A stretch of 44,305 nucleotides of DNA from Nitrospirota bacterium (lineage in GTDB: Bacteria; Nitrospirota; Thermodesulfovibrionia; Thermodesulfovibrionales; Dissulfurispiraceae), in NCBI GenBank assembly GCA_021791055.1, contig JAJYXI010000079.1, positions 1-44,305 of the forward strand, given 5' to 3'. Positions 19,449 to 36,396 of this stretch are shown here, piece by piece; position 1 is the first letter of the stretch; each line of letters opens with the position of its first letter. The notes under the pieces were generated by a model. It saw only the letters and a list, made by a program, of their open reading frames with translations. It searched no databases and was not told the origin of the DNA. The translations under genes and the position numbers were made by a program.

Positions 19449-21116
19449 TTATGATACTAAATGTTTATTTTCTTTCTTTTCAAGCTCCCTCACAATATCT
19501 ATCCTTGAGACCATGCCTACCGGATGCCCCTCCTTATCCACTATAACTATTCTCTTTATCTTTTTCTCTGTAATAGTTTTAATAAGTTCTTCTAAAGGGG
19601 TATTCTCAAAGGCAGTGACAGCAGGTGAGGTCATTATATCCTTTGCGGTATTGCCGAGTTTTTCTCCCCGTTTTTCCTTTGGAAGGATCAGGTCTCCAAG
19701 TTTTTCCACAAAATGAGGGTCACGCTGTATCTCGCTGTAAATGATATCCGACTCTGAAATCACGCCTATAACCCTGTTATCCCTATCCACAACAGGGAGT
19801 CCGCTTATATGTTTAGAAATAAGGATTTTGCCTATTTCGTCTACAGTGGTATCGGGAGTAACAGTAACAAGTTTTCTGCTCATTGCATCGCTGGCAACGA
19901 GGGCCTTCTTCCAGAACCTCACCTTTCCTGTATAAACAGGAATGGTGAATTTAAGCAAAAGGGTATACATGAGCGCGCCCGCAGCCCATATCCCAACTGT
20001 TACCACTATCTCCTGCATGGTCGGGATATACTCGTAGATCTCTCCGAGGGTGTCGGGAACAAAACCGGGTATTACAAGTCCCATGCCCTTTTCTATATAT
20101 ACACCCATAATGAGGAATACACACCCCATATTGAGGGTCAGAAAGTTCTCACGGGTCTTTGGCAGAAGCAACAGAATAAAGGCAATAATATTCAGTACCG
20201 TAGCCGTCCATATCCAGGGGACGAGGTTTGCATGTCCATGGAGGCCGAAGTAGAGATATTTAATGGGATACACATGAATGGTGCCTGAATAAAACTCCTT
20301 GAACACCTCTGCGCCTAAAAGAAAGAGATTTATGGCCATAGCATAGGCCACAAGCTCTGCAATCTTAAAGATAGCACGGTTTTCAATATCAAGTTTCCAT
20401 ATCTTTCTGACGATCTGGAAGATGATGAGCATTAAAGCAGGCCCGGAGCAGAATGCAGAGGCAATGAATCTGGGGGCCACAATAGAGGCATTCCAGAACG
20501 GCCTCGCCGGCAGACCATTGTAGAGGAATGCTGTTACGGTATGGATGCTGACTGCCATGGGAATGGAAAGTATTATTAAAGGCCATATACTCGGCAAATA
20601 CTCCTTACCGTGGGATATCCTGTACAGGACATAAAAGACGATTATGATATTAACAGTAAGGTAACCGTTCAATACGATCACATCCCACGCCAGAAGGGAT
20701 GATGGGAAATTCATCGCACCTATAACAGGCAGGATATGCCATACCCTGAATGGCTGCCCCATGTCAACTATTATAAAGAGTATACACATGGTGATGGCAG
20801 TTATGGCGAGGAGTTCGCCGAATAATGCCACCTCCTTAATGGGTTTAAATTTGTAGACATATGCAGGGATGATAAGATACACAGCAGCAGCAGCCACTCC
20901 CACAAGGAATGTAAAGTTTGATATGTACATTCCCCATGAGACCTGGTCCCTCATGGCAGTAGTTATAAGGCCCCTGTTCAACTGGTCGATATATGCGCTC
21001 AGCCCCAGAAGAATTAGAAAAGACAGAAATGCAAGCCATGCGTAGTATTTCTTGCTTCCCCTCATGATTTCTTTAAATGCAATGAGAAAATCTCTTACTG
21101 CCACTGCTTGAACCAT
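19449..21116 (-). CDS. NrfD/DsrP-type membrane subunit fused to a CBS-domain pair (module 2)
   Basis: Residues 1 to about 405 form a ten-helix NrfD/HybB/DsrP-like quinone-interacting membrane protein (for example MYISNFTFLVGVAAAAVYLI, MGQPFRVWHILP and LHGHANLVPWIWT). Residues 408-555 are two CBS repeats: SDAMSRKLVTVTPDTTVDEI to VIGVISESDI, and DIMTSPAVTAFENTPLEEL to VGMVSRIDIV. CBS pairs usually bind adenosine nucleotides and regulate the attached protein. The two parts lie in one uninterrupted frame, so this is a true fusion. The family is normally 380-420 residues without such a tail. The gene follows the ferredoxin gene by 9 bases. Confidence 0.9.
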   Translation of the reverse strand: MVQAVAVRDFLIAFKEIMRGSKKYYAWLAFLSFLILLGLSAYIDQLNRGLITTAMRDQVSWGMYISNFTFLVGVAAAAVYLIIPAYVYKFKPIKEVALFGELLAITAITMCILFIIVDMGQPFRVWHILPVIGAMNFPSSLLAWDVIVLNGYLTVNIIIVFYVLYRISHGKEYLPSIWPLIILSIPMAVSIHTVTAFLYNGLPARPFWNASIVAPRFIASAFCSGPALMLIIFQIVRKIWKLDIENRAIFKIAELVAYAMAINLFLLGAEVFKEFYSGTIHVYPIKYLYFGLHGHANLVPWIWTATVLNIIAFILLLLPKTRENFLTLNMGCVFLIMGVYIEKGMGLVIPGFVPDTLGEIYEYIPTMQEIVVTVGIWAAGALMYTLLLKFTIPVYTGKVRFWKKALVASDAMSRKLVTVTPDTTVDEIGKILISKHISGLPVVDRDNRVIGVISESDIIYSEIQRDPHFVEKLGDLILPKEKRGEKLGNTAKDIMTSPAVTAFENTPLEELIKTITEKKIKRIVIVDKEGHPVGMVSRIDIVRELEKKENKHLVS

Positions 21117-21125
21117 CTATTCCTC

Positions 21126-22052
21126 CTATCTTCCGTAAGCAAAGAAATAATAAAACTTGGGGTTTGTATTCAGATCCTCTTTGAGCCTGAAGACCCTTTT
21201 GTGTTCAATGGCGTATCTGATCTCACTTTGGGGGTCAAGGAGATTGCCGAACTTCCTTGCTCCAACAGGACAGATCTCCACGCATGCAGGGTATCTGCCG
21301 TTCCTTGTCCTCTGTACACAGAAGGTGCACTTTTCAACCACTCCTTTATAGCGAGGGCGGTTTCCGAGGTAGTGAGTGTTGGGATTTATCTTTTCAGCAG
21401 GCCTTTTAGGCTCTCCCCAGTTGAATCTCCTTGCTCCATAAGGACATGCTGCCATACAGTATCTACAGCCTATGCACCAGTTGTAGTCTACAACTACGAT
21501 GCCATCAGGCTCCTTCCATGTAGCCTGTGTCGGGCATGCCCTCACACAGGGGGGATTTTCGCACTGCTGGCATTGAACAGGCATATAAAAATGTCCCGAC
21601 TCAGGGACTTGCTCTGGATTATAGTATTTTTCGGACTCTTCAAGGTCTATCCATTTTTCGCCCTTTTTAAATCTAAGCACCGTTATCCACTGTACCTGAG
21701 GGTCTATAGACTGATTGTTTTCTTCCACACATGCATAAACGCATCTCCTGCAGCCAATGCACCTTGAAAGGTCGAGTCCGTAGCCGAATAATACGCCGGG
21801 CATAGGCTTCTCGCTGCCTATATGTATCGCCTTTTTGTATTTCTGCTCGTATTCTTTTTCAAGACGCTGTATGACCTTTTTCTTCTCATCGTCATTCATT
21901 TCCCTGAAGTGCTTCTGAAAAAATGCCTCCCAGAAAGATGCATCAGCCTTATTAAGGGGCAGTGCAGTGCCTGCAAGGCCGAGGGCAGCGCCTTTTAAGA
22001 ATGTCCTTCTGTCAAGCTTCACTCCCAATGGATTACTGCGTATCTTAGACAT
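21126..22052 (-). CDS. Tat-exported ferredoxin subunit with four 4Fe-4S motifs (module 2)
   Basis: This 308-residue DsrO/PsrB-like protein carries a twin-arginine signal (LDRRTFLKGAALGLAGTALP), placing it in the periplasm. The cysteine clusters are CIGCRRCVYAC, CQQCENPPCVRAC, CIGCRYCMAACPYGARRF and CTFC with CVEICPVGARKFG. A helical insert of about 60 residues (EMNDDEKKKVIQRLEKEYEQ) sits between the signal and the first cluster. I start at the ATG at 22052 after AGAGG; a longer frame to 22292 would run through the upstream cytochrome gene and is rejected. It links the tetrahaem cytochrome to the NrfD-CBS subunit. Confidence 0.9.
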   Translation of the reverse strand: MSKIRSNPLGVKLDRRTFLKGAALGLAGTALPLNKADASFWEAFFQKHFREMNDDEKKKVIQRLEKEYEQKYKKAIHIGSEKPMPGVLFGYGLDLSRCIGCRRCVYACVEENNQSIDPQVQWITVLRFKKGEKWIDLEESEKYYNPEQVPESGHFYMPVQCQQCENPPCVRACPTQATWKEPDGIVVVDYNWCIGCRYCMAACPYGARRFNWGEPKRPAEKINPNTHYLGNRPRYKGVVEKCTFCVQRTRNGRYPACVEICPVGARKFGNLLDPQSEIRYAIEHKRVFRLKEDLNTNPKFYYFFAYGR

Positions 22053-22089
22053 ATCGTTACCTCTGTTTGAATTTCTAAATTTTGCATTT

Positions 22090-22611
22090 TTATTTGATAT
22101 CTGCCGGTCTTGCCGGAGGAGGCAGCGGTTGTAATGGCTTAAATGGCGGGTCATGCGGCCAGTGGCAGTGGACACAGAGCCTGTACTGTTTTTCTCCATT
22201 CCACATTCCTGTCCTTTTACCGTGCAGTCCTGCCTTCCAATCGCGGAATACCACGCCATGGCATTGAGCGCAAAGATAGTAGGACTCATCAAAACTTATT
22301 AGCTTGCCATTGGCAAGTCTCAGCTTATCTCTGTCATCAGGATTGTGGCAGTCAAAACACCAACCTCCGGGCATGTGCTTTAGAGTTATGTCCTGGTGCA
22401 TTTGCTCAAGCTTCCTCTGTTTCTTGTTAACAGGCATATACTTGTGGCACTGTGAGCATGGGAATATTCCGGGTGAAAATGGAGGGGGTGGTACAAGGAA
22501 TTTTTTCGGGACCTCCTGCCCTTTTGATTCAGCAAAAGAGAATACTGCACAAACAAGGGGAAATAATGCAATAAGTATTGCCAGACCTATCTTCTTACCG
22601 TATATATTCAT
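22090..22611 (-). CDS. Exported tetrahaem cytochrome c (module 2)
   Basis: This 173-residue protein has a signal peptide (IGLAILIALFPLVCAVFSFA) and four haem-c sites: CSQCH, CFDCH, CAQCH and CVHCH. A proline-rich stretch (VPPPPFSPG) precedes the first haem and another ends the protein. The start at 22611 is preferred over a TTG at 22620. It is the first gene of a three-gene module with ferredoxin and NrfD-CBS and has its own promoter upstream. It resembles, but is longer than, the trihaem DsrJ. Confidence 0.86.
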   Translation of the reverse strand: MNIYGKKIGLAILIALFPLVCAVFSFAESKGQEVPKKFLVPPPPFSPGIFPCSQCHKYMPVNKKQRKLEQMHQDITLKHMPGGWCFDCHNPDDRDKLRLANGKLISFDESYYLCAQCHGVVFRDWKAGLHGKRTGMWNGEKQYRLCVHCHWPHDPPFKPLQPLPPPARPADIK

Positions 22612-22711: not shown

Positions 22712-23491
22712 TTATGGCAGGGTTACCGTAGCAGACTGACCCGGGCGTATTATAGTCGTTGGGTCAAAGCTGAATTTAACATCCACTTCATATAGAGGCT
22801 TCCCGTTCCTGATACCATCAGGCTCCATGCCAATGCGGTTGATCACACCTTTATATTTTTTACCGGCAACCTTCACAGAAACCTTCTGTCCCTTGGATAG
22901 CGCTGATAATTCTTCGCCGGCAATCTTAATCCTTGCCAGCATATGCCCTGCCTCTGCAAGGACAAACAGAGGGATGGGCTGCATGGCGGATACAATGGTC
23001 TGTCCGACCTCGGCTTTCCGCTGCAGTACAACACAATCAAAGGGAGCGCTCACCTCACTGTATTCCAGATTCAGTTCTGCCTGGATCAAGACAGCCTGAG
23101 CCGCCTGGTATTCAGAATTGGATGTTACAAAACCTATTCTGGCCAATTCCAGCTCATGGTCTGCTATGAGGTCGCGTTCATGCATTTCTTTTGCCCTTTT
23201 CAATTCCCGTTGTGCCTCTTCGCTTTTTACCTTTAGTCGCTCAACCTCTGCACTTGCCTTTTCCATTTGTGCTTTAAAAGGACGTTCGTCCAGCCTCAAT
23301 AAAGGTTGCCCATTGCGCACATGATCACCTATATTGACCAGCACCTCGGATACAACTCCTGATACCGGAGTGCTAAGCTCTACTTTACGAGACCAGTGCA
23401 GAGTAGCATCTATGTCTTTAGCCCATAATGCGGCAGGCAATATAAAGGCCAGTATAAAACAAACCATCGCTGAATCTGCTATTTTATTCAT
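22712..23491 (-). CDS. RND-type periplasmic membrane-fusion protein
   Basis: This 259-residue adaptor of the HlyD/AcrA family has a signal peptide (VCFILAFILPAALWA), split lipoyl halves around a coiled coil (VSGVVSEVLVNIGDHVRNGQPL and YSEVSAPFDCVVLQRKAEVGQTI), and a beta-barrel part (GHMLARIKIAGEE, GQKVSVKVAGKKYKGVINRIG). It is shorter than usual MFPs. It overlaps the tolC-like gene by 8 bases, so the two should act together. No inner-membrane RND or ABC pump gene follows; the operon ends here. Confidence 0.88.
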   Translation of the reverse strand: MNKIADSAMVCFILAFILPAALWAKDIDATLHWSRKVELSTPVSGVVSEVLVNIGDHVRNGQPLLRLDERPFKAQMEKASAEVERLKVKSEEAQRELKRAKEMHERDLIADHELELARIGFVTSNSEYQAAQAVLIQAELNLEYSEVSAPFDCVVLQRKAEVGQTIVSAMQPIPLFVLAEAGHMLARIKIAGEELSALSKGQKVSVKVAGKKYKGVINRIGMEPDGIRNGKPLYEVDVKFSFDPTTIIRPGQSATVTLP

Positions 23492-24806
23492 TGCTGCCTC
23501 CTTTAAATACCACCTTACCTGTCAGGGCATCAAGCCTTGCCCATGCCAGTGTCAGTGCATATCTTGTCTGTGCAAGGCGAAGTCTTGCCTCAGAATATCT
23601 GACCATGGCATCTCCGAGATATGCCTTTAATCCCTGCTCATAGATGGTTCTGCTGCGGTCAAGATAAAGGTCGCTGTACTTTATCAGCGACTGAACCTCT
23701 TCAAGCTGATAGTGCAAAACCTTTATCTGCTGCCATGCCTCAAGTACTGCCTGCCTGAGATCCATTTCCCTGCGCGAGAGTCGGGCCTCAAGACGGTGCA
23801 GTTCTGCTGCATAGCCGGCAATGCCGGCTTCTGTGCGACCACCTGCAAATAAGGGTATTTCCAGTATAAGTCCAGCACGCAGCCTATCCCTTGAGCCAAA
23901 CTCCCGCTCATGAGCAGATGCCTCAAATTCGGCAGAGAGGATGGGATTCCCCTCTGCACGGGCTGCCTTCAGTCGTTCGCGGGCAGCCTCGACTTTAGCA
24001 CGCAGGGCTAAAATCGCCGGGTCATTAATAAAGGCTTTCTTTGTGAGTTCTTCCACCTCCGTCAATTCACGATTGATATACGGCAGTTCCGGTTCTGCGA
24101 GTGTAACAGGCGGCATACCAGGGCAATTAAGCGCCTCTGCAAGGAGTGCACGGGTAAGTTGCTGCCTCATCTCGCTAACAGCCCGCTTTCTGCGTGCCTC
24201 CATGTATTTGCTCTCTGCCTCTAAGAAATCCAGCTCAGAGGCCTGTCCCAATTCTTTGCCGCCGGTTAGCCGCTGATATATGTAAAAAACCACTGCCACT
24301 GCCTCTCTATCTCTAATGAATTCAAGGTCTGCAAGGAGCACATCAAAGAACCGCTCCATAATCTCCATACGCCGCCTGTTCAGGGTATCCGTATAAAGCA
24401 GCCTGTTAGCCTTTATCTCGGTTTCTGCTGCGGAGACCTTGAGACTGCTTTTGCCAAAATCGAATATCTTCTTCTTTGCATAGAAACTCAGGCTTGAATC
24501 ATTGTGGGATTGGTCCGGGGCTGGTTTTGGAGGTTCAACCCACTGTGCACGACCAAATAATGAGGCATTGACCCCGAGGTCTGATTTTATGCCGAGATAT
24601 TTGGCCTCAGCCTGTTTTAGTTCTGCCTTTGAAAGGGCAATGTCTGGATGTGGCTCGCCTGCAAGCTGGAGTGCATATTCAAGGGTCAGTGGTTCCGGCA
24701 AAGGGGAAATATTATTCCCCTCGGCATGCAGATTGGATGTTGATAAAACCAGTATGTAAAAGAGCGCTGCAAAAAAAACCTGCCATGGAGCAAAGCAGGT
24801 TTTCAT
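23484..24806 (-). CDS. TolC-family outer-membrane channel protein
   Basis: This 440-residue exported protein shows the TolC/OEP pattern of two long helical repeats: LTLEYALQLAGEPHPDIALSKAELKQAEA at the N-terminus and RLRAGLILEIPLFAGGRTEAGIAGYAAELHRLEA in the second half. It would form the outer-membrane channel for the adaptor downstream. Its ATG overlaps the stop of the selenoprotein-like thioredoxin gene (ATGA), implying coupling and a shared job with the sulfur proteins. Confidence 0.88.
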   Translation of the reverse strand: MKTCFAPWQVFFAALFYILVLSTSNLHAEGNNISPLPEPLTLEYALQLAGEPHPDIALSKAELKQAEAKYLGIKSDLGVNASLFGRAQWVEPPKPAPDQSHNDSSLSFYAKKKIFDFGKSSLKVSAAETEIKANRLLYTDTLNRRRMEIMERFFDVLLADLEFIRDREAVAVVFYIYQRLTGGKELGQASELDFLEAESKYMEARRKRAVSEMRQQLTRALLAEALNCPGMPPVTLAEPELPYINRELTEVEELTKKAFINDPAILALRAKVEAARERLKAARAEGNPILSAEFEASAHEREFGSRDRLRAGLILEIPLFAGGRTEAGIAGYAAELHRLEARLSRREMDLRQAVLEAWQQIKVLHYQLEEVQSLIKYSDLYLDRSRTIYEQGLKAYLGDAMVRYSEARLRLAQTRYALTLAWARLDALTGKVVFKGGSNE

Positions 24807-25342
24807 TTTGTCTTTTCTTTTAATCTCTGCTGTTTGTACTTTATAAAAGGAATCTCTTTATACATGCCTTTCACAACATATTCGCCAAACCATAAAAACT
24901 CCTCGGCAGTCTGGGTGGCGCCGATGTATCTTGTTATCTCATTTCCATTCAGGTCATAGAAAACAATTGTGGGAGTGGCGCGGACACGATTAATTTTTGC
25001 ATATTTTTTCTGAGGCATGGTCTTTCCCTTGAAATCCGTGATCTCCGCATCACCCCTCATGTCCACAGTGAAGATGAGAAAGTGCTTCTTATAAAATTTC
25101 TGGACTTCCTGCTGGATGAATATCTTTTCACGCATCCAGTGGCAAAATGGTCAATCATCCTCTTCGAAAAAGAGCATGATGCCTTTCTTGCCCTGCTTCT
25201 GGGCGGTCTGGAGCTCTTCCGGAAGGTCCCCGAATGTTGCATCAAAAAATCCGGCAGCGGAGCCGCCTGCATTTGGTGAAGCAGCCTGCGATATGCCGGT
25301 CAGCATCAATATTGTCAGCAGGATTACACTGAGAGTTTTCAT
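24803..25342 (-). CDS. Probable selenocysteine-containing thioredoxin-like protein (UxxC)
   Basis: One frame runs from the ATG at 25342 (after GAGGTGGG) to the stop at 24803, interrupted only by a TGA at 25153-25151. Decoded as selenocysteine (U64), the product is 179 residues: a signal peptide (LSVILLTILMLTGISQAA), then a thioredoxin fold of the SoxW/DsbD-C-terminal type with FFEEDD-U-PFCHWM where homologues have CxxC, and the cis-proline RATPTIVF. The paralogue at 35937-36332 has FYEKGCRWCERM at the same place. A 7-bp hairpin follows the TGA. The alternative is a nonsense mutation or base error; the intact 115 codons downstream and the exact active-site position argue against decay. It should reduce disulfide or persulfide bonds in the periplasm. 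Confidence 0.8.
25112..25139 (-). promoter_or_regulatory. Candidate bacterial SECIS hairpin
   Basis: In the minus-strand mRNA CUGGAUG (25139-25133) pairs with CAUCCAG (25118-25112), seven perfect pairs around the 14-base loop CGUGAAAAGAUAUU. The loop begins 18 bases after the UGA and has G as its second base. As I recall the rules, bacterial SECIS loops have a G in the first two positions, 3-14 bases, and start roughly 16-37 bases from the UGA, so this fits. Confidence 0.65.
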
Positions 25343-25352
25343 ATCCCACCTC

Positions 25353-25874
25353 TTATTTTTTGTACATCTCTATAACATCATTTATGAGATCTTCAACCAA
25401 TTTTTCAACAGGGTCAAGGACGTCTTTGCCGCTGTCATCTTTCCAGATAAGATGTCTGTAAGAGAGATACACCTTCTTCTCATCATCGGGCAGGGTATAG
25501 ACCATTATCTGGTAAGGGCAGAATGCAAGAAAGTGGGGATTCCTCTCCATCATATCCCTTGAGATGACAGCGCTGCAGAATTCAAGGACATTTGCCTTTC
25601 CGAATATCTTTTTTGTCCTGCCAAGCTCCCTGCCGGTCCTCTCCAGCATCTCGCCAACATGGGAGACGCTGGATACGGTCAGGCCCCTCTCATTTAGTGC
25701 CGTCTCCAGTCCCTTCCATATCTCATCATAATCGGCATATACTGAATAGATAACAACAGGCTCCTTACACCTGCTATCTTCGACACCCCCCTTTAATTCC
25801 CCCCTTAGTAAGGGGGGATATAGGAAGGTGAGGGCAAATAAGACAAAAGCAAAAAGTATATATCGGTTCAGCAT
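25353..25874 (-). CDS. DUF302-family exported protein
   Basis: This 173-residue protein has an N-terminal signal (LFAFVLFALTFLYP) and the DUF302 pattern: a YSVYADYDEIWKGLETALNERGLTV start, a central FGKANVLEFCSAVISRDMME segment and LAFCPYQIMVYTLPDDEKKVYLSYR. DUF302 proteins are often linked with sulfur or redox genes, but their function is not settled. Residues 20-31 (PPLLRGELKGGV) are encoded by a C/G-run inverted repeat that appears to have inserted after the signal peptide. It is the second gene of the rhodanese operon. Confidence 0.82.
   Translation of the reverse strand: MLNRYILFAFVLFALTFLYPPLLRGELKGGVEDSRCKEPVVIYSVYADYDEIWKGLETALNERGLTVSSVSHVGEMLERTGRELGRTKKIFGKANVLEFCSAVISRDMMERNPHFLAFCPYQIMVYTLPDDEKKVYLSYRHLIWKDDSGKDVLDPVEKLVEDLINDVIEMYKK
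25784..25817. repeat. C/G-run inverted repeat inside the DUF302 gene
   Basis: CCCCCCTT (25799-25806) and AAGGGGGG (25810-25817) pair around AGT, next to another run CACCCCCCTTTAA. Such elements usually lie between genes; here the copy keeps the frame and adds about twelve residues after the signal peptide. A related half element occurs near 11350. Confidence 0.6.
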
Positions 25875-25905
25875 ATCTTTTAGTATAACAAAACTCTACG
25901 GCTGT

Positions 25906-26808
25906 TTATTTCCCGGCGCTTTCATCGATTATGGGCAGACTCTGGTCGCTGGACCATTCATCTATTCCGCCAAAGTATATACGCGCATTATATCCCATGT
26001 TCTTCAGTACTGCAAATAAAAATGCCGCCTTCGGTCCCCAGTTGCAGTAAGTTATAACTTCCCTGTCCTTTGTAACGCCCTTTTTATTGAGTATGCCGGC
26101 AACCTCTTTGGGTGATTTAAAGGTCTCTTTCGGGTCCTGAAGGTCGTGCCACTCAAGGAGTTTTGCCCCCGGTATATGACCCATGCTCGATTCACCGGTA
26201 AATTCATCCGGCAGCCTTCCATCCAATATATGGATGCCCTTTTTTAAGTTCTTTGCAAGCCAGTCCGCATTAACCACAAATTCTTTCCTCAGATTAGACT
26301 TGAAGACAGATGGTTTTATAACCGGGACATCTGCGGTTAATGGATGTTTCTCTTCTTCCCACCGCTTCTTGCCTCCTGAAAGTATCCGGGCCTTATCCTG
26401 TCCGTATATCGCAAGTACCGTCCATGCAAGGCCAGCGCCTTTATCCAGTTCAGTGCCGCTGTCATAAATGATTACCTTTGAATCATTACTTATGCCGATG
26501 CCTCCCAGAATTTCTTCCACCCTTTCAGGCCGTATTGGAAAGCCGGTTTGCCTCTGATAATCCCTGTCTATGGACGTTTTTATCTTGCTGATGGGAAGAA
26601 CCACGGCGCCGGGGATATGGGACTTCTTGTAAATACCCTCCTCGGTAGCCTCAACTATCACAACACCGGGCTTCCCCATTATTTTTGACAGTTCCGAGGG
26701 CTTTATCAGGACATCCGAACCCTCGGCCTTTCCAGATGCGCCCTGAATAAACAAAAGGGCCAATAGAAGATATATGGCAGATGCAAAAACTTTCCTCATC
26801 GATCTCAT
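25906..26808 (-). CDS. Exported two-domain rhodanese (thiosulfate sulfurtransferase)
   Basis: This 300-residue protein has a signal peptide (FASAIYLLLALLFIQGASG) followed by two rhodanese domains, the SseA/TST layout. The inactive N-terminal domain spans SELSKIMGKPGVVIVEATEEG to IIYDSGTELDKGAGLAW; the C-terminal domain ends in the active loop VITYCNWGPKAAF, where Cys would carry the persulfide. The loop lacks the usual second Arg (CRxGxxA), so its preferred donor may differ. It starts the operon with DUF302, the selenoprotein, TolC and MFP, and sits behind a sigma-54 promoter with an SD of CGGAGG. Confidence 0.9.
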   Translation of the reverse strand: MRSMRKVFASAIYLLLALLFIQGASGKAEGSDVLIKPSELSKIMGKPGVVIVEATEEGIYKKSHIPGAVVLPISKIKTSIDRDYQRQTGFPIRPERVEEILGGIGISNDSKVIIYDSGTELDKGAGLAWTVLAIYGQDKARILSGGKKRWEEEKHPLTADVPVIKPSVFKSNLRKEFVVNADWLAKNLKKGIHILDGRLPDEFTGESSMGHIPGAKLLEWHDLQDPKETFKSPKEVAGILNKKGVTKDREVITYCNWGPKAAFLFAVLKNMGYNARIYFGGIDEWSSDQSLPIIDESAGK

Positions 26809-31483: not shown

Positions 31484-33145
31484 TTAGACTATCATCTTCG
31501 GCCTTGCAGGCTTTATCTTTATAGTCTTCTTCTTTTTGATATAATTGATGACAATATCATAAACAGGAGGCCCCGGCTGTTCCTCCATGGAAGCCCATCC
31601 TGCCATTGTGTATTCCTTGTCAGGGTGAACAGCCTTGCCCCGGACCTTCAGGTCATGTATCCTGTTGCCCATTTTTTCATTCACCTTAACAGTGAAGTCC
31701 AGGCCCGCTGACCTCACCATGTCTCCTCCCTGCTGTTTATATGGGTCGGGATTGAAGATATTGTCAGATATGTCTTCCAGTATCTCTTTCAGGAAGCTGC
31801 CTTTTATCTTTGTCTTGTATGTATTTGCATATGTGATGGCTGTCTGTGAATAGACATCATCTGCTGTAATAGGCCCCGGGAGAATTGTCCTTCCCCACCT
31901 GAAGCCTGCAGAAAGGGCGAACTCTGCATCGTAGTGGTCGATCATCGCCTCACATATAAGGTCATCAAAGGTGCCGTCCAGATTGCCTCTGCGGTAAAGG
32001 ATATCCTCTGTGTGTCCCAAAACCTCATCAAGCTTTGCCTTGTGGGGCCTTCTTATATCCTCTACGAGCTTTGACATTTCAGGGTCGGGATCTATCATCT
32101 CGGACATAACAGGTATGAGCCTGAATGAATAATCAACCATCTTCTTATTCTTCACCTCGATGTCCATCCTTGAGAGGAACTTTCCATAACAACCCGTGTT
32201 TACCACAAGGGTCTTGCCCACCTGTATGGGCTTTGGTATTCCATCATGGGTATGGCCGCCGAAGATTACATCGATGCCCTTCACCCTGCTTGCCATCTTC
32301 TTGTCCACATCACAGCCGTTATGGGAAAGAACGATAACGAGGTCGACACCCTTTGCCCTCACCTCATTCACGGTCTTCTGCATGTTTTCGTCTTTGATGC
32401 CGAATGACCAGTTCGGTATGAATCTCCTCGGATTGGCTATGGGCGTGTAGGGAAATGCCTGGCCTATTACTGCAACAGATAGGCCATTGACCGTTTTTAT
32501 TTCATAGGGTTTGAATATGGGGTCTCCCCATGTGGATTCGTTGACATTCTGGGCAACAAAGGGGAAATTCATCATCTTTACAAGCTCAAGAACCCTCTCT
32601 TCGGGATATGTGAATTCCCAGTGGCCTGTCATGACCTCGCAGCCGAGGAGATTAAAGACCCTCACCATGTCTTCTCCGCGGCTCCAGAGGGCTGTTGCAG
32701 ATCCCTGGAGGGTGTCGCCGCCATCAAGATACAAAACCTTGTTATGCCTTTCAGCCTTCACCCTCTTAATCAGTGGGGCTATATGGGCAACTCCTCCAAC
32801 CTTTCCGTATTTCTTTGCAAGGGCCGAGAAGTTGTCGCTGGTATATGCATAGGCCTCAAGGGTATCAGGCTTATACCCATAATATTTCAGAAGATCCTTG
32901 CCCGTAAGATGCGGCGGCTTGCCCTTATTTATACCCACCCCTATGTTTACATCAGGCTCCCTGTAATACATGGGAATGAGCTGCGCATGGATGTCTGTGG
33001 TGTGCAGTATTGTGATATTTCCTTTTGAATCGAATTTGAACAGATTCTCCGGCCTTAAACTCTTTGCGAGGGCTGCCGGTGATACAGCAGCAGTTCCTGC
33101 AGCGAGTGTCGCCATCCAGAGAAATTCCCTTCTTGTAAGCGCCAT
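31484..33145 (-). CDS. soxB: SoxB sulfate thioesterase
   Basis: This 553-residue periplasmic enzyme hydrolyses sulfate from the Cys-bound S-sulfonate on SoxY. It has a twin-arginine signal (LTRREFLWMATLAAGTAA) and dimanganese metallophosphatase motifs: HTTDIHAQ near residue 48, LDGGDTLQGS, VLSHNGCD and GGHTHDG, plus a 5'-nucleotidase-like C-terminal domain. Length is close to the family norm. It is the last sox structural gene of the operon; soxCD do not follow. Confidence 0.95.
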   Translation of the reverse strand: MALTRREFLWMATLAAGTAAVSPAALAKSLRPENLFKFDSKGNITILHTTDIHAQLIPMYYREPDVNIGVGINKGKPPHLTGKDLLKYYGYKPDTLEAYAYTSDNFSALAKKYGKVGGVAHIAPLIKRVKAERHNKVLYLDGGDTLQGSATALWSRGEDMVRVFNLLGCEVMTGHWEFTYPEERVLELVKMMNFPFVAQNVNESTWGDPIFKPYEIKTVNGLSVAVIGQAFPYTPIANPRRFIPNWSFGIKDENMQKTVNEVRAKGVDLVIVLSHNGCDVDKKMASRVKGIDVIFGGHTHDGIPKPIQVGKTLVVNTGCYGKFLSRMDIEVKNKKMVDYSFRLIPVMSEMIDPDPEMSKLVEDIRRPHKAKLDEVLGHTEDILYRRGNLDGTFDDLICEAMIDHYDAEFALSAGFRWGRTILPGPITADDVYSQTAITYANTYKTKIKGSFLKEILEDISDNIFNPDPYKQQGGDMVRSAGLDFTVKVNEKMGNRIHDLKVRGKAVHPDKEYTMAGWASMEEQPGPPVYDIVINYIKKKKTIKIKPARPKMIV

Positions 33146-33166
33146 TTGACCTCCTCCTAAGCTGTT

Positions 33167-34000
33167 CTAAAACCTGAGACCGGGCACCTGAATCGGCAGC
33201 CCATTGGCCTGATAGGTTAAATAGAATTCCAGATTGCGGATATCCTCGCTCTCATATTCCGGCAGCTTATCCACCCTCATGTTTTTAATGCAGTCATTTA
33301 TAATCCTTCTCTGAATGGTGCCTGTGGACTGCCATGCCATCCTGTATGTAGGCCAGTGGTCTGCATGGTGTCTGTTTGTCGAAAGTATATTTGCCCGTGT
33401 CTTATGGCCTGAATACTTTATGTGGCATATAGCGCAATTCCAGTTCCACTGCCCGAGCCTCGTGTAGTACATCTTCTTTCCGGCCTCATAGAATGGCTTT
33501 GCAGGGCCGTCTATGCTGATCTTGATAGGCATGCCGTTGGAAAGGGACTTAACAAACAATTCAACGGCAACTATATCAGGGGTGTCATACTTCCAGGGCT
33601 TTGCACCCATCTGATTTTCACGGCACCTGTTAATCTGCACCGGAAGGGTGATTATGCCTTTGATGCCGGCATTGTATTTTGGATAGGTGGTTGCAGCGCC
33701 TTTTAACTTTTCCCCATTCTGTCCGTGGCAGCTTGCACATGACTTTCCTTTGCTTCCATCAACCTTCTGGAATAGGGCCTTTCCATCGTCAAGCAGCATC
33801 TCGGCCGGATTGCCCTCTTCTGCCATCTTCTTTGTGGCATCACCATAAAACTCATTGTATCTCTTCTCATACTCCTCCGCCGAGATATTCGGAGTGTATT
33901 CCTGAATCTCCCCGGCAATGGAATTTTGCGGCGTAATAACAGATATAGCGCCTGCTATAAGCAGCAGTGCAATTAATCCCCCTAAAGCTCTTTTAATCAT
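33167..34000 (-). CDS. soxA: SoxA dihaem cytochrome c
   Basis: SoxA with SoxX conjugates thiosulfate to the SoxY cysteine. This 277-residue exported protein (signal ALGGLIALLLIAGAISVI) has two haem sites, CASCHGQNG and CAICHIKYSG, the dihaem form. The conserved end of the family, RRIINDC with the putative catalytic cysteine, follows the second haem, then NLEFYLTYQANGLP. It sits between soxZ and soxB in the minus-strand operon. Confidence 0.93.
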   Translation of the reverse strand: MIKRALGGLIALLLIAGAISVITPQNSIAGEIQEYTPNISAEEYEKRYNEFYGDATKKMAEEGNPAEMLLDDGKALFQKVDGSKGKSCASCHGQNGEKLKGAATTYPKYNAGIKGIITLPVQINRCRENQMGAKPWKYDTPDIVAVELFVKSLSNGMPIKISIDGPAKPFYEAGKKMYYTRLGQWNWNCAICHIKYSGHKTRANILSTNRHHADHWPTYRMAWQSTGTIQRRIINDCIKNMRVDKLPEYESEDIRNLEFYLTYQANGLPIQVPGLRF

Positions 34001-34026
34001 TTGCCCACCTCCTTTATTTTCTTAAG

Positions 34027-34356
34027 TTACTGAGGATTGATCTGAACCGTATCTTCAAATGTACCGCCTTTATTGTCCTTATATACTATCTTGAGGGGCG
34101 CTGCCTTATCTGCCTTTACATAGAAGGTCATGAATGGGTCGGCGCTGATGGCTATCGTCCACTCCATGCTGCTTACGAGGTCGTTTCCATAATAAACTTT
34201 TACATCGTTGATGTAATATGCAGGGATTGGCTTTCCCGCCTTATCCTTCCTCAACCCTGTCTCCATGGGGTGAGTTATCAATGCCTTTACAGGGATTACC
34301 TCACCCTTTTTTATGCCCTGCGGTAACTTTATCCTTATTTTCCCAACTTCTGCCAT
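34027..34356 (-). CDS. soxZ: SoxZ sulfur-carrier partner
   Basis: SoxZ forms the SoxYZ heterodimer that holds sulfur intermediates. This 109-residue protein matches the family: start KIRIKLPQGIKKGEVIPVKALITHPMETG, middle KPIPAYYINDVKVYYG and a C-terminal FYVKADKAAPLKIVYKDN with an immunoglobulin-like fold. It has no signal peptide and is presumably exported bound to SoxY through the Tat pathway. It follows soxY by 55 bases with a good ribosome site. Confidence 0.94.
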   Translation of the reverse strand: MAEVGKIRIKLPQGIKKGEVIPVKALITHPMETGLRKDKAGKPIPAYYINDVKVYYGNDLVSSMEWTIAISADPFMTFYVKADKAAPLKIVYKDNKGGTFEDTVQINPQ

Positions 34357-34371
34357 TATATCCTCCTTTTA

Positions 34372-34391
34372 AAATTTGAAATTTCAAATTT
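34372..34391. repeat. Perfect 20-bp palindrome between soxY and soxZ
   Basis: The 20 bases from AAATTTGAAA to TTTCAAATTT read the same on both strands, followed by the repeats GAGATTTGAGATTTT. It could pause transcription or be an intergenic repeat; it has no U-tract beyond its own sequence. Confidence 0.6.
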
Positions 34392-34411
34392 GAGATTTGA
34401 GATTTTTAATA

Positions 34412-34897
34412 TTATCCTCCGCAGCCGCCGATGGTCACCTTTACTGATTTAATACCCTCGTAGAGTTTCCCCGTGCTGGTCTCAAAGACTGCGCGGACAT
34501 TGGAGGTCTTCCTCATCTTGATCCTCAATGCAAGTTCAGCCTTCCCGTTTGCAGGTGTCAGATTAGAGCTCGCCACATAAGGCTGGATGTTCCCTTCTGC
34601 ATAGATATAGATCTTTTTGACATAGTTATCTTTCTCCATGGGCAGATCCGAGGTAACCGTTATGGGAACAACGGCTCCGTTTTCTGCGATAATCGGCGCC
34701 TTTATATCCACATGCCCGGTCTCTATCTTGCGGTCTCCAAAGTGTCTTTTCAAAACATCGCCGATCTTTTCTTCAGCTTCTGCTGCAGATGTCGGCTTAA
34801 CAAGGCCCGGCAGGGTGCCTGCCATCAGGAATGCAGCGCACGCAGCGCCCGTTGCCTTGATAAATTCTCTCCTTGAAAGTCCAATATTTTCCTTCAT
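34412..34897 (-). CDS. soxY: SoxY sulfur-carrier protein
   Basis: This 161-residue protein carries sulfur intermediates on the cysteine of its swinging C-terminal arm; the protein ends VTIGGCGG, the expected motif with the reactive Cys. A twin-arginine signal (LSRREFIKATGAACAAFL) sends it to the periplasm with SoxZ. The core ITVTSDLPMEKDNYVKKIYI and NVRAVFETSTGKLYEGIKSVK is typical. A GGAGG site precedes the ATG. Confidence 0.95.
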   Translation of the reverse strand: MKENIGLSRREFIKATGAACAAFLMAGTLPGLVKPTSAAEAEEKIGDVLKRHFGDRKIETGHVDIKAPIIAENGAVVPITVTSDLPMEKDNYVKKIYIYAEGNIQPYVASSNLTPANGKAELALRIKMRKTSNVRAVFETSTGKLYEGIKSVKVTIGGCGG

Positions 34898-34924
34898 TCC
34901 TACATACCTCCTTATCTTTGGCTT

Positions 34925-35341
34925 TTATTTTTTCTTTAAACTGTAGAGAAATTCCACGATGTCATCAACCCGCTTGTCAATCAGCTTCTTTTGTTCCTCA
35001 GCAGACAGCTTTTCTTCTCCCTTAAAAATCAGAAGCTTGCTGGCCCCATAAGGCGGCATAAAGGTATCAGGATTAAATTTCCTTGCATCATATACCCACT
35101 GCCTCACTGTGTCCCTGTCTTTCTCGGCATAGCCCTTCATGACTTCCACCAGATCCGGCGCAATGTCGCTTGGGAACTCAATCTTAGGGAAATGGTGGCA
35201 TGACACACAATTGGCGACCGGCCTGCCGAGAGCAAGCTTTTCACCATTTTTTGCATCGCCTGCCACGGCGACCATGGGAATAGCAACAAGGGCAAAAAGC
35301 AGCGCCGTTATTGCCATCCTAAAGACTCTCTTCTTTTCCAT
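34925..35341 (-). CDS. soxX: SoxX monohaem cytochrome c
   Basis: This 138-residue exported protein (signal RMAITALLFALVAIPMVAVA) carries one haem site, CVSCHHFP, and a likely methionine ligand in FNPDTFMPPYG. It partners SoxA in forming the SoxY-thiosulfate adduct. The ATG at 35341 follows AGGAGGAGG; a longer frame to 35368 has no such site. It precedes soxY by 28 bases. Confidence 0.88.
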   Translation of the reverse strand: MEKKRVFRMAITALLFALVAIPMVAVAGDAKNGEKLALGRPVANCVSCHHFPKIEFPSDIAPDLVEVMKGYAEKDRDTVRQWVYDARKFNPDTFMPPYGASKLLIFKGEEKLSAEEQKKLIDKRVDDIVEFLYSLKKK

Positions 35342-35360
35342 ACTTACCTCCTCCTTTTTA

Positions 35361-35858
35361 TTATTCAACCTTTATATAGGCAAAGCCTTCATCCTGAAGC
35401 TCTACAACCCTTACCTGGCCCGAATCAGTGAGTTTGCAGAAGGGCTTGAGTTTACCCTTGTCTATCTTCATCCTTTTCAGGGTGATATCGCACTCTTCAA
35501 CTTTCACTCCATAGCCGTCCACAAGGCTCGCAAGCATCTCATCTATGGACTTTTGAAGTTTTTCGTCTATCTGTTTGGATTCAAATTGGGTTCCGCTTTT
35601 GTCCTTAAGCAGAAACTGCACACAGGCACCATTGGCGACGAGTCTCACATCATAAGCAATATTCTTTGTTGTGTAGTAGTTGACGAGATTGTACATGTTG
35701 CGGAGCAAACCGTCAAATCTCTTGGCATCCCCAAAGTCGCAGTGATAAACGGCCTTTCTCTCCTTTTCTTTCTCAGATGCTTTGCCTATGGATGGCATTA
35801 AAATGAGCGCCAATGCAAGACATAAGATTGAGACCTTTAGAAAATTCCCCTTTTTCAT
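35361..35858 (-). CDS. Exported DsrE-like protein
   Basis: This 165-residue protein has a signal peptide (LKVSILCLALALILMPSIG) and a DsrE/DsrF-like fold: KAVYHCDFGDAKRFDGLLRNMYNLVNYY, then YDVRLVANGACVQFLL. It holds a cysteine in the VEECDITL segment that may bind sulfur, as in DsrE. Its periplasmic position differs from cytoplasmic DsrE. The ATG at 35858 follows GGGGGAG. It lies between the soxW-like gene and soxX, so a sulfur-relay role in Sox is plausible. Confidence 0.78.
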   Translation of the reverse strand: MKKGNFLKVSILCLALALILMPSIGKASEKEKERKAVYHCDFGDAKRFDGLLRNMYNLVNYYTTKNIAYDVRLVANGACVQFLLKDKSGTQFESKQIDEKLQKSIDEMLASLVDGYGVKVEECDITLKRMKIDKGKLKPFCKLTDSGQVRVVELQDEGFAYIKVE

Positions 35859-35936
35859 AATCTCCCCCTTTTGTCCCGATGTATTCAGGACAACTTTTTG
35901 AAATTTTACCTTGCGACAGAACAAGGTGACCGGTTA

Positions 35937-36332
35937 CTAACAGCCTTTATTCTTATTTTTTATCCCATCTACATAATTACAGAGCAGGTCATTGAAATCC
36001 TCTTTTGTTACAGCGCCCGGAACCCTTAATAATTCCCCGCCATGGGCATTTAAAAATATAACCGTTGGAGTGCCCATTACCCTGTATTTTCTGGCAAGGT
36101 CTTTTTCCAGCATGCCCGTTTCCTGTATCTTTTTTCCCCCATGGACATCTACCCTTATAATATCTGCATTCCTCAGAAGGATACTTTTTATTGACATGTC
36201 ATTCATAATATTATCCATGCGCTCACACCACCTGCACCCTTTCTCATAAAAATACAACACCTTGATATCGGATGCTGCTGCGGTAGATGAAAGGAAGAAA
36301 AAAACTGAAATTATAAGTATTAGCTGTCTCAT
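35937..36332 (-). CDS. SoxW-like exported thioredoxin
   Basis: This 131-residue protein has a signal peptide (QLILIISVFFFLSSTAAASD) and a thioredoxin fold with the active site FYEKGCRWCERM and the cis-proline MGTPTVIFL. SoxW proteins keep Sox cysteines reduced in the periplasm. I start at the ATG at 36332; an upstream ATG at 36365 overlaps a sigma-54 promoter, and a start there would sit before its transcription start. No ribosome binding site is evident, and the leader would be about six bases long. It opens the sox operon. Confidence 0.82.
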   Translation of the reverse strand: MRQLILIISVFFFLSSTAAASDIKVLYFYEKGCRWCERMDNIMNDMSIKSILLRNADIIRVDVHGGKKIQETGMLEKDLARKYRVMGTPTVIFLNAHGGELLRVPGAVTKEDFNDLLCNYVDGIKNKNKGC

Positions 36333-36348
36333 TACTCTTTTAGTTTTT

Positions 36349-36364
36349 TGCAAGATATATGCCA
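36349..36364 (-). promoter_or_regulatory. Sigma-54 promoter of the sox operon (P2)
   Basis: The minus strand reads TGGCATATATCTTGCA, a close match to TGGCAC-N5-TTGCW with the strict GG-N10-GC spacing. Predicted transcription start is near 36338, only about six bases from the soxW-like ATG. Two paired activator palindromes lie upstream. Confidence 0.8.
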
Positions 36365-36396
36365 CAAAGATATTCCTTGGTATTGGCTGAATCTAT

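Follow-up and report, generated by a model that had tools for sequence, protein, structure and literature searches.

The window, i.e. the whole stretch of DNA analysed here, is the 44,305-nt contig JAJYXI010000079.1 of assembly GCA_021791055.1 (its own genome is designated G000 below). On its minus strand lies a gene, here named trx(U), which begins with an ATG at 25342, ends with a TGA of its own at 24805-24803 and carries a further TGA in frame at codon 64 (Table 1). The first-pass annotation, made from the sequence alone, had placed a gene with an in-frame TGA here; its coordinates proved correct, and the strand could be added. After readthrough of codon 64 the active site becomes FFEEDD-U-PFCHWM, and the readthrough product matches the Pfam family Thioredoxin_2 (PF13098) with 69.5 bits (gathering cut-off 27). 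The hydrophobic N-terminal signal peptide predicts export to the periplasm, and both results agree with the earlier description of an exported thioredoxin-like protein.

Along the minus strand, the genes run from a thioredoxin-like protein with CRWC (the paralogue already noticed in the first pass) through a DsrE-like protein, a probable soxX, soxY, soxZ, soxA, soxB, a phosphonate-type binding protein and a two-component pair to the rhodanese, DUF302, trx(U), tolC and hlyD genes, followed by a multihaem cytochrome, a dsrO-like gene and dsrP. The linkage to rhodanese, DUF302 and TolC that had been proposed at the outset was confirmed by profile matches, but was incomplete, as a sox set and dsr genes lie around these neighbours. 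The CBS domains on the DsrP-like protein suggest that nucleotides control this electron-transfer subunit of dsr.

Table 1 Features of the trx(U) region, with positions in the window
Feature	Position	Strand	Remarks
dsrP with C-terminal CBS domains	19449..21116	minus	NF045798, 424 bits; CBS by Pfam
dsrO-like Fe-S protein	21126..22292	minus	194.2 bits vs cut-off 200; ORF start probably too far upstream
HlyD/RND-type periplasmic adaptor	22712..23491	minus	no inner-membrane pump gene adjoining
tolC-type outer membrane efflux protein	23484..24806	minus	start overlaps trx stop (ATGA)
trx(U)	24803..25342	minus	predicted 179-aa exported thioredoxin-fold selenoprotein; terminal TGA overlaps tolC start (ATGA)
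Candidate SECIS with lower stem (UUUUGC/GCAGGA)	25107..25147	minus	two-part layout common to the other Sec genes
Candidate SECIS, upper hairpin	25112..25139	minus	CUGGAUG-loop-CAUCCAG, +12 to +39 after TGA; weak alone
In-frame TGA, codon 64	25151..25153	minus	first residue of UxxC (U-P-F-C); homologue codons TGA or TGC/TGT
N-terminal signal peptide, about residues 1-20	25283..25342	minus	from sequence; model helix 3-15, low confidence up to residue 26
DUF302 protein	25353..25874	minus	74-82% identity in the other Sec genomes
Two-domain rhodanese (3-mercaptopyruvate sulfurtransferase-like)	25906..26808	minus	profile matches
soxB	31484..33145	minus	TIGR04486, 821.9 bits
soxA	33167..34000	minus	TIGR04484, 228.3 bits
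soxZ	34027..34356	minus	108.1 bits
soxY, GGCGG type	34412..34897	minus	TIGR04488, 148 bits
Probable soxX	34925..35368	minus	57.3 bits vs cut-off 61
DsrE-like protein	35361..35924	minus	profile match
Cys paralogue, thioredoxin-like, CRWC	35937..36365	minus	sequence and profile match

When 396 genomes of the phylum were searched for homologues of trx(U), three close ones (63-68% identity) were found in G210, G194 and G186, all from another family than the window genome, and all three have TGA at codon 64. The codon was read again as TGA in the public records MHEL01000019 (G210), CAKKRA010000405 (G194) and JAHFEP010000028 (G186), titled Nitrospirae or Nitrospiria. In G085, a member of the order to which the window genome belongs, the codon is TGT; a TAA inside this homologue, considered as its state at codon 64, was rejected because it lies elsewhere in the gene. 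Scanning 84,980 species genomes added 28 further loci, proteobacterial and nearly all from Gammaproteobacteria, with Thiocystis minor, Thiohalomonas and Sedimenticola among their hosts. These loci carry TGC or TGT at codon 64 wherever the motif could be read (27 Gammaproteobacteria were counted with a Cys codon), so that, with G085 included, Cys occupies this position in 28 homologues. Among the hosts of the Cys form that bear names are known sulfur oxidisers, and many of the 27 Gammaproteobacteria oxidise sulfur. In the alignment of 32 proteins, column 64 is C or U without exception. The initial placement of the TGA at the first cysteine of a CxxC motif is thus upheld, and the homologue alignment suggested at that stage, in search of Cys or TGA, gave TGA in three genomes and Cys in 28 homologues.

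Both sides of the TGA are intact, as had been stated. When the window gene is compared with the other three Sec genes, dN is 0.20-0.26 on either side of the codon, with dS of at least 1.3 or saturated, and among the genes of G186, G194 and G210 the dN/dS downstream of it is 0.04-0.11; the values point to purifying selection on both halves, at a dN/dS of about 0.1. The up- and downstream parts also align to single full-length Cys proteins. Two separate products, with termination at the UGA and reinitiation at an ATG that lies 15 nt further on (TGG ATG) and opens a frame of 110 aa, are on these grounds the least probable of all readings, the more so as neither the signal peptide nor the first strand nor the UPFC site would be part of the reinitiated product. 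A sequencing error or a fresh nonsense mutation, in which case the true codon would be TGC or TGT or the gene dead, deserves hardly more credit. The window sequence does come from a metagenome-assembled genome (MAG), and the Cys homologues do carry TGC or TGT at this codon, but an identical TGA stands in three assemblies of another family, for which one shared error is not credible, and the part downstream of it is strongly constrained. As the same codon is kept in three assemblies and the coding constraint persists, the TGA is neither an error nor the mark of a dead gene. These comparisons show UGA 64 to be translated and to stand where the relatives have a catalytic Cys.

The four Sec forms constitute one clade in the tree (support 99/95) with Cys forms around it, and a single Cys-to-Sec change would suffice to account for them; the direction, from Cys to Sec, is suggested by the position of the Cys forms outside the Sec clade. 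No relatives were seen in viral contigs (close search), and plasmid DNA gave no match.

The surroundings of trx(U) recur in the related genomes. G194 and G186 repeat the order sox - YeeE - DUF302 - trx(U) - tolC, the sox genes there being 55-87% identical. In G194 and G210, hlyD is succeeded by a soxYZ pair, and G194 has two soxYZ pairs. Between hlyD and a second soxYZ pair, G194 encodes a protein of 523 aa that includes a thioredoxin domain of the DsbH type (L050:10761-12332). All four Sec genomes pair trx(U) with DUF302 and with rhodanese or YeeE, and sox genes occur in all four stretches examined. Among the gammaproteobacterial loci with enough sequence, nearly all have tolC after trx, and many also hlyD; in several of them a TlpA-like redoxin immediately precedes trx. 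The link to TolC and HlyD therefore extends well beyond G000: between Nitrospirota and Gammaproteobacteria, no other neighbourhood is as well conserved as the trx-tolC-hlyD trio. An inner-membrane pump gene was looked for in the trio and none was found, either in Nitrospirota or in the gammaproteobacterial loci. In many genomes the family adjoins tolC with no sox gene in the stretch examined. The overlap of the trx stop with the tolC start (ATGA) is present in four of four Sec genomes and in none of the nine Cys genes checked.

It should be added that three congeners of the window organism were searched and have no trx gene, and that the identity of its sox, DUF302 and trx genes to the copies in another family of the phylum amounts to 55-87%. 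The region (22712-26808 and 31484-35368) looks like an island that was either transferred or patchily kept.

The selenocysteine machinery, selA, selB, selC and selD, had been named as the first thing to look for in the genome. Three of the four genes were identified by profile in the G000 assembly (99.75% complete, 87 contigs), namely selA (534 bits), selB (381 bits) and selD (329 bits), but selC was absent from the assembly in tRNA searches with ARAGORN and Rfam. The selD gene has an in-frame TGA of its own, in the context AAG-U-AAK, i.e. it encodes a second selenoprotein, SelD of the Sec type, and the TGA is followed, 17 nt downstream, by the GUC-loop hairpin GGGUCC-GUC-GGACCU. Two tRNA-Sec matches in G000 were considered as selC and rejected: the first (47.7 bits) is tRNA-Ser(UGA) according to both ARAGORN and Rfam, and the second (44.3 bits) proved to be a tRNA-Cys of the SelC-like kind, with anticodon GCA. 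The latter (G000:C71:61270-61392), missed by ARAGORN, combines an acceptor stem of 8 bp with a very long variable arm; the same long tRNA-Cys(GCA) is present in congeners, and G000 has an ordinary tRNA-Cys elsewhere. The long tRNA fits the SelC-like tRNA-Cys class known in Nitrospirae, in which some tRNAs decode UGA (PMC7609411). Some Nitrospirae are reported to have tRNA-Sec within or close to selB (PMC8124441); in and near selB of G000 none was seen.

Genuine tRNA-Sec(UCA) was found in the congeners G001 and G002 (71.4 and 65.4 bits) and, furthermore, in G085, G186 and G210. In G001, selC is located about 500 bp upstream of a long gene which, as read from its sequence, is of the radical-SAM type. 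The G000 copy of this gene lies at the end of contig C27 (G000:C27:40800-41537), and the contig matches G001 until approximately 64 bp short of selC, where it runs into what reads as a transposase end. The simplest reading is that selC of G000 was lost in an assembly gap at a repeat, and the end of C27 would then illustrate how a tRNA of key importance may drop out of an almost complete MAG. In G194, a MAG of 430 contigs rated 96% complete, the TGA gene is present and no convincing selB, selC or selD was detected, which is likely due to incomplete assembly.

The missing selC and the SelC-like tRNA-Cys with its 8-bp acceptor stem, from a class with UGA-reading members in Nitrospirae (PMC7609411), leave some room for a UGA read otherwise than as Sec, whether a tRNA-Cys variant inserts Cys, a changed code gives Trp or Gly, or plain readthrough occurs. 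We consider this very improbable: the tRNA-Cys in question has a GCA anticodon, trx(U) itself terminates in TGA, selA, selB and a Sec-type selD are intact in G000, and the congeners have a normal tRNA-Sec(UCA).

The hairpin downstream of codon 64 had been put forward as a bacterial SECIS element with a G in its loop. Its 7-bp stem (CTGGATG...CATCCAG) begins 11 nt past the TGA and its loop 18 nt past it, with an energy of -8.7 kcal/mol in the gene's own sequence, inner pairs included. Under the strict bSECIS rule (16-37 nt from UGA to a loop of 3-9 nt, a G in the first two loop positions, minimum free energy of -7.5 kcal/mol or lower; PMC13188914), a search of the kind proposed in the first pass found stem, spacing and energy as expected, but the rule for the loop G fails in the minimum-energy structure. 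In the other three Sec genes spacing and G are as the rule has them, and in that scan one of the three reaches the energy limit; all three can also fold AGGAAAA-GGU-UUUUCCU. Across the family, Sec sequences fold with a mean energy of -12.2 kcal/mol and Cys sequences with -7.9, and stems of at least 7 bp form in every Sec sequence tested versus one of 27 Cys sequences. The hairpin of the window gene is not significant by itself against dinucleotide shuffles (z = -0.68), and 64% of synonymous recodings of the same sequence form a stem of at least 7 bp (P = 0.64). As the amino acids nearly dictate the stem and the strict loop rule is broken, it is weak evidence when taken alone. The Cys forms have a near-constant WMKxNVLNQ in this stretch and the Sec forms WMREKIFIQ or WMKEKVFP, so the amino acids after the active site may have given way to an RNA element in the Sec forms. 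Since the hairpin proves nothing by itself, it is on conservation that the case for Sec rests, and on that basis UGA 64 of trx(U) almost certainly means selenocysteine.

An AlphaFold2 model of trx(U) (mean pLDDT 89.9) has the thioredoxin fold, with residue 64 immediately before the helix 65-74, the usual place of the attacking Cys. Among the matches listed, the closest solved structure is the Helicobacter pylori protein 4fyb (Z 17.0, 2.2 A over 140 residues). This thioredoxin-fold protein (4fyb/4fyc, annotated DsbC), which we take to be HP0377, is likewise exported and gives the best PDB profile match (E 3e-11), but it shares 24% identity with trx(U) over the aligned part and comes from a different taxon and setting. 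The C-terminal (gamma) domain of DsbD is also among the nearest solved structures (Z 12.9); this domain and DsbH, both periplasmic reductants, resemble trx(U) in fold and by weak profile matches, but the scores fall far under the curated NCBIfam cut-offs (34.5 of 190 bits for DsbH, 21.2 of 330 for DsbD). The selenoprotein TsoB, a rhodanese/DsbD fusion-like protein (NF045694), is matched weakly in its C-terminal thioredoxin part (27.8 bits, cut-off 805), but is a fusion of 572 positions listed with two Sec residues. No NCBIfam model is matched by trx(U) above its cut-off, and no curated model for the subfamily itself was found.

By setting, the nearest counterparts are SoxS/SoxW of alphaproteobacterial sox clusters. 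SoxS, whose gene adjoins a YeeE-like soxT, is a periplasmic thiol-disulfide oxidoreductase that removes false disulfides from SoxYZ (soxSRT; PMC10451225, PMC11582611). The neighbours of trx(U) differ, being DUF302, TolC and HlyD, and no sequence match to a solved SoxS was seen: no entry named for the P. pantotrophus protein appeared in the sequence search (E up to 10) or among the 50 fold matches listed. As stated in the first pass, selenothioredoxin-like proteins are known, and a PF13098 UxxC family has already been listed (PMC13188914, Table 1; PMC9312934). The thiol:disulfide interchange selenoprotein in those lists shares with trx(U) the Pfam family, the UxxC motif and Sec in place of the N-terminal active-site Cys; in comparison with the listed example WP_011366075.1, likened by family and motif only, trx(U) is a stand-alone, exported protein of approximately 180 aa in a sox/dsr and tolC-hlyD setting. 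The kind of protein is therefore already known and the setting is new, and the open-access literature yielded no paper on this subfamily, on Sec in it, or on selenoproteins within a sox cluster.

Taken together, we consider it highly probable that trx(U) is an exported thioredoxin-fold selenoprotein in which UGA 64 is read by SelB and which may serve Sox carriers as a periplasmic reductase. SelB would read the codon as selenocysteine, aided by the hairpin that follows it, so that the active site becomes UPFC, and the mature protein would act in the periplasm as a reductase, as its fold and neighbours suggest. Its most likely partner in the periplasm would be SoxY or a sulfur carrier, for instance the DUF302 protein or the rhodanese. 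A disulfide, persulfide or sulfane-sulfur adduct on that partner would be attacked by the selenolate of residue 64, and Cys 67 would then resolve the mixed bond, with electrons from a membrane donor of the DsbD/CcdA/SoxV type. TolC and HlyD might be involved through export of sulfur compounds or as part of a shared envelope unit.

The most likely function, judged from fold and gene neighbours, is that of a thiol/persulfide reductase for the sulfur carriers of Sox, although the Sox-linked part taken separately is a tentative assignment. It may be too narrow, because the family stands beside tolC in many stretches without a sox gene. Nearly as likely is a general role of the Sec protein in the redox chemistry of envelope disulfides or metal(loid)s, tied to TolC/HlyD efflux instead of to Sox chemistry; the trx-tolC-hlyD neighbourhood, conserved beyond all others and often with no sox in the stretch examined, is consistent with it, and a link to metal resistance is known for many selenoproteins associated with transporters (PMC13188914). 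Against this general role stand the pairing of trx(U) with DUF302 and rhodanese or YeeE, with sox genes in the stretch examined, in four of four Sec genomes, and the want of an adjoining inner-membrane pump gene. The sulfur oxidisers among the Cys-form hosts, whose physiology is general knowledge, also speak for the Sox-linked role.

A wider proposal, which we regard as unlikely though worth stating, is that trx of the PFCHWM type, TolC and a small HlyD adaptor form an undescribed, pump-less envelope unit that handles or exports reduced sulfur in sulfur oxidisers, and that this unit was upgraded once to Sec in Nitrospirota and joined there to sox and dsr. Since the tolC start lies within the trx stop in all four Sec genomes, translation of tolC could depend on Sec insertion, and the unit would then be selenium-gated.

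Gene callers that take TGA as a stop would truncate trx(U) before its active site, and the gene is probably mis-annotated wherever it is present. With the approximately 28 Cys relatives, some of them in named or cultured strains, Sec and Cys become directly comparable in periplasmic sulfur handling. Furthermore, trx(U) points to a conserved trx-tolC-hlyD trio common to Nitrospirota and Gammaproteobacteria, and it would place selenium within a sox/dsr sulfur-oxidation cluster, a meeting point of sulfur and selenium chemistry.
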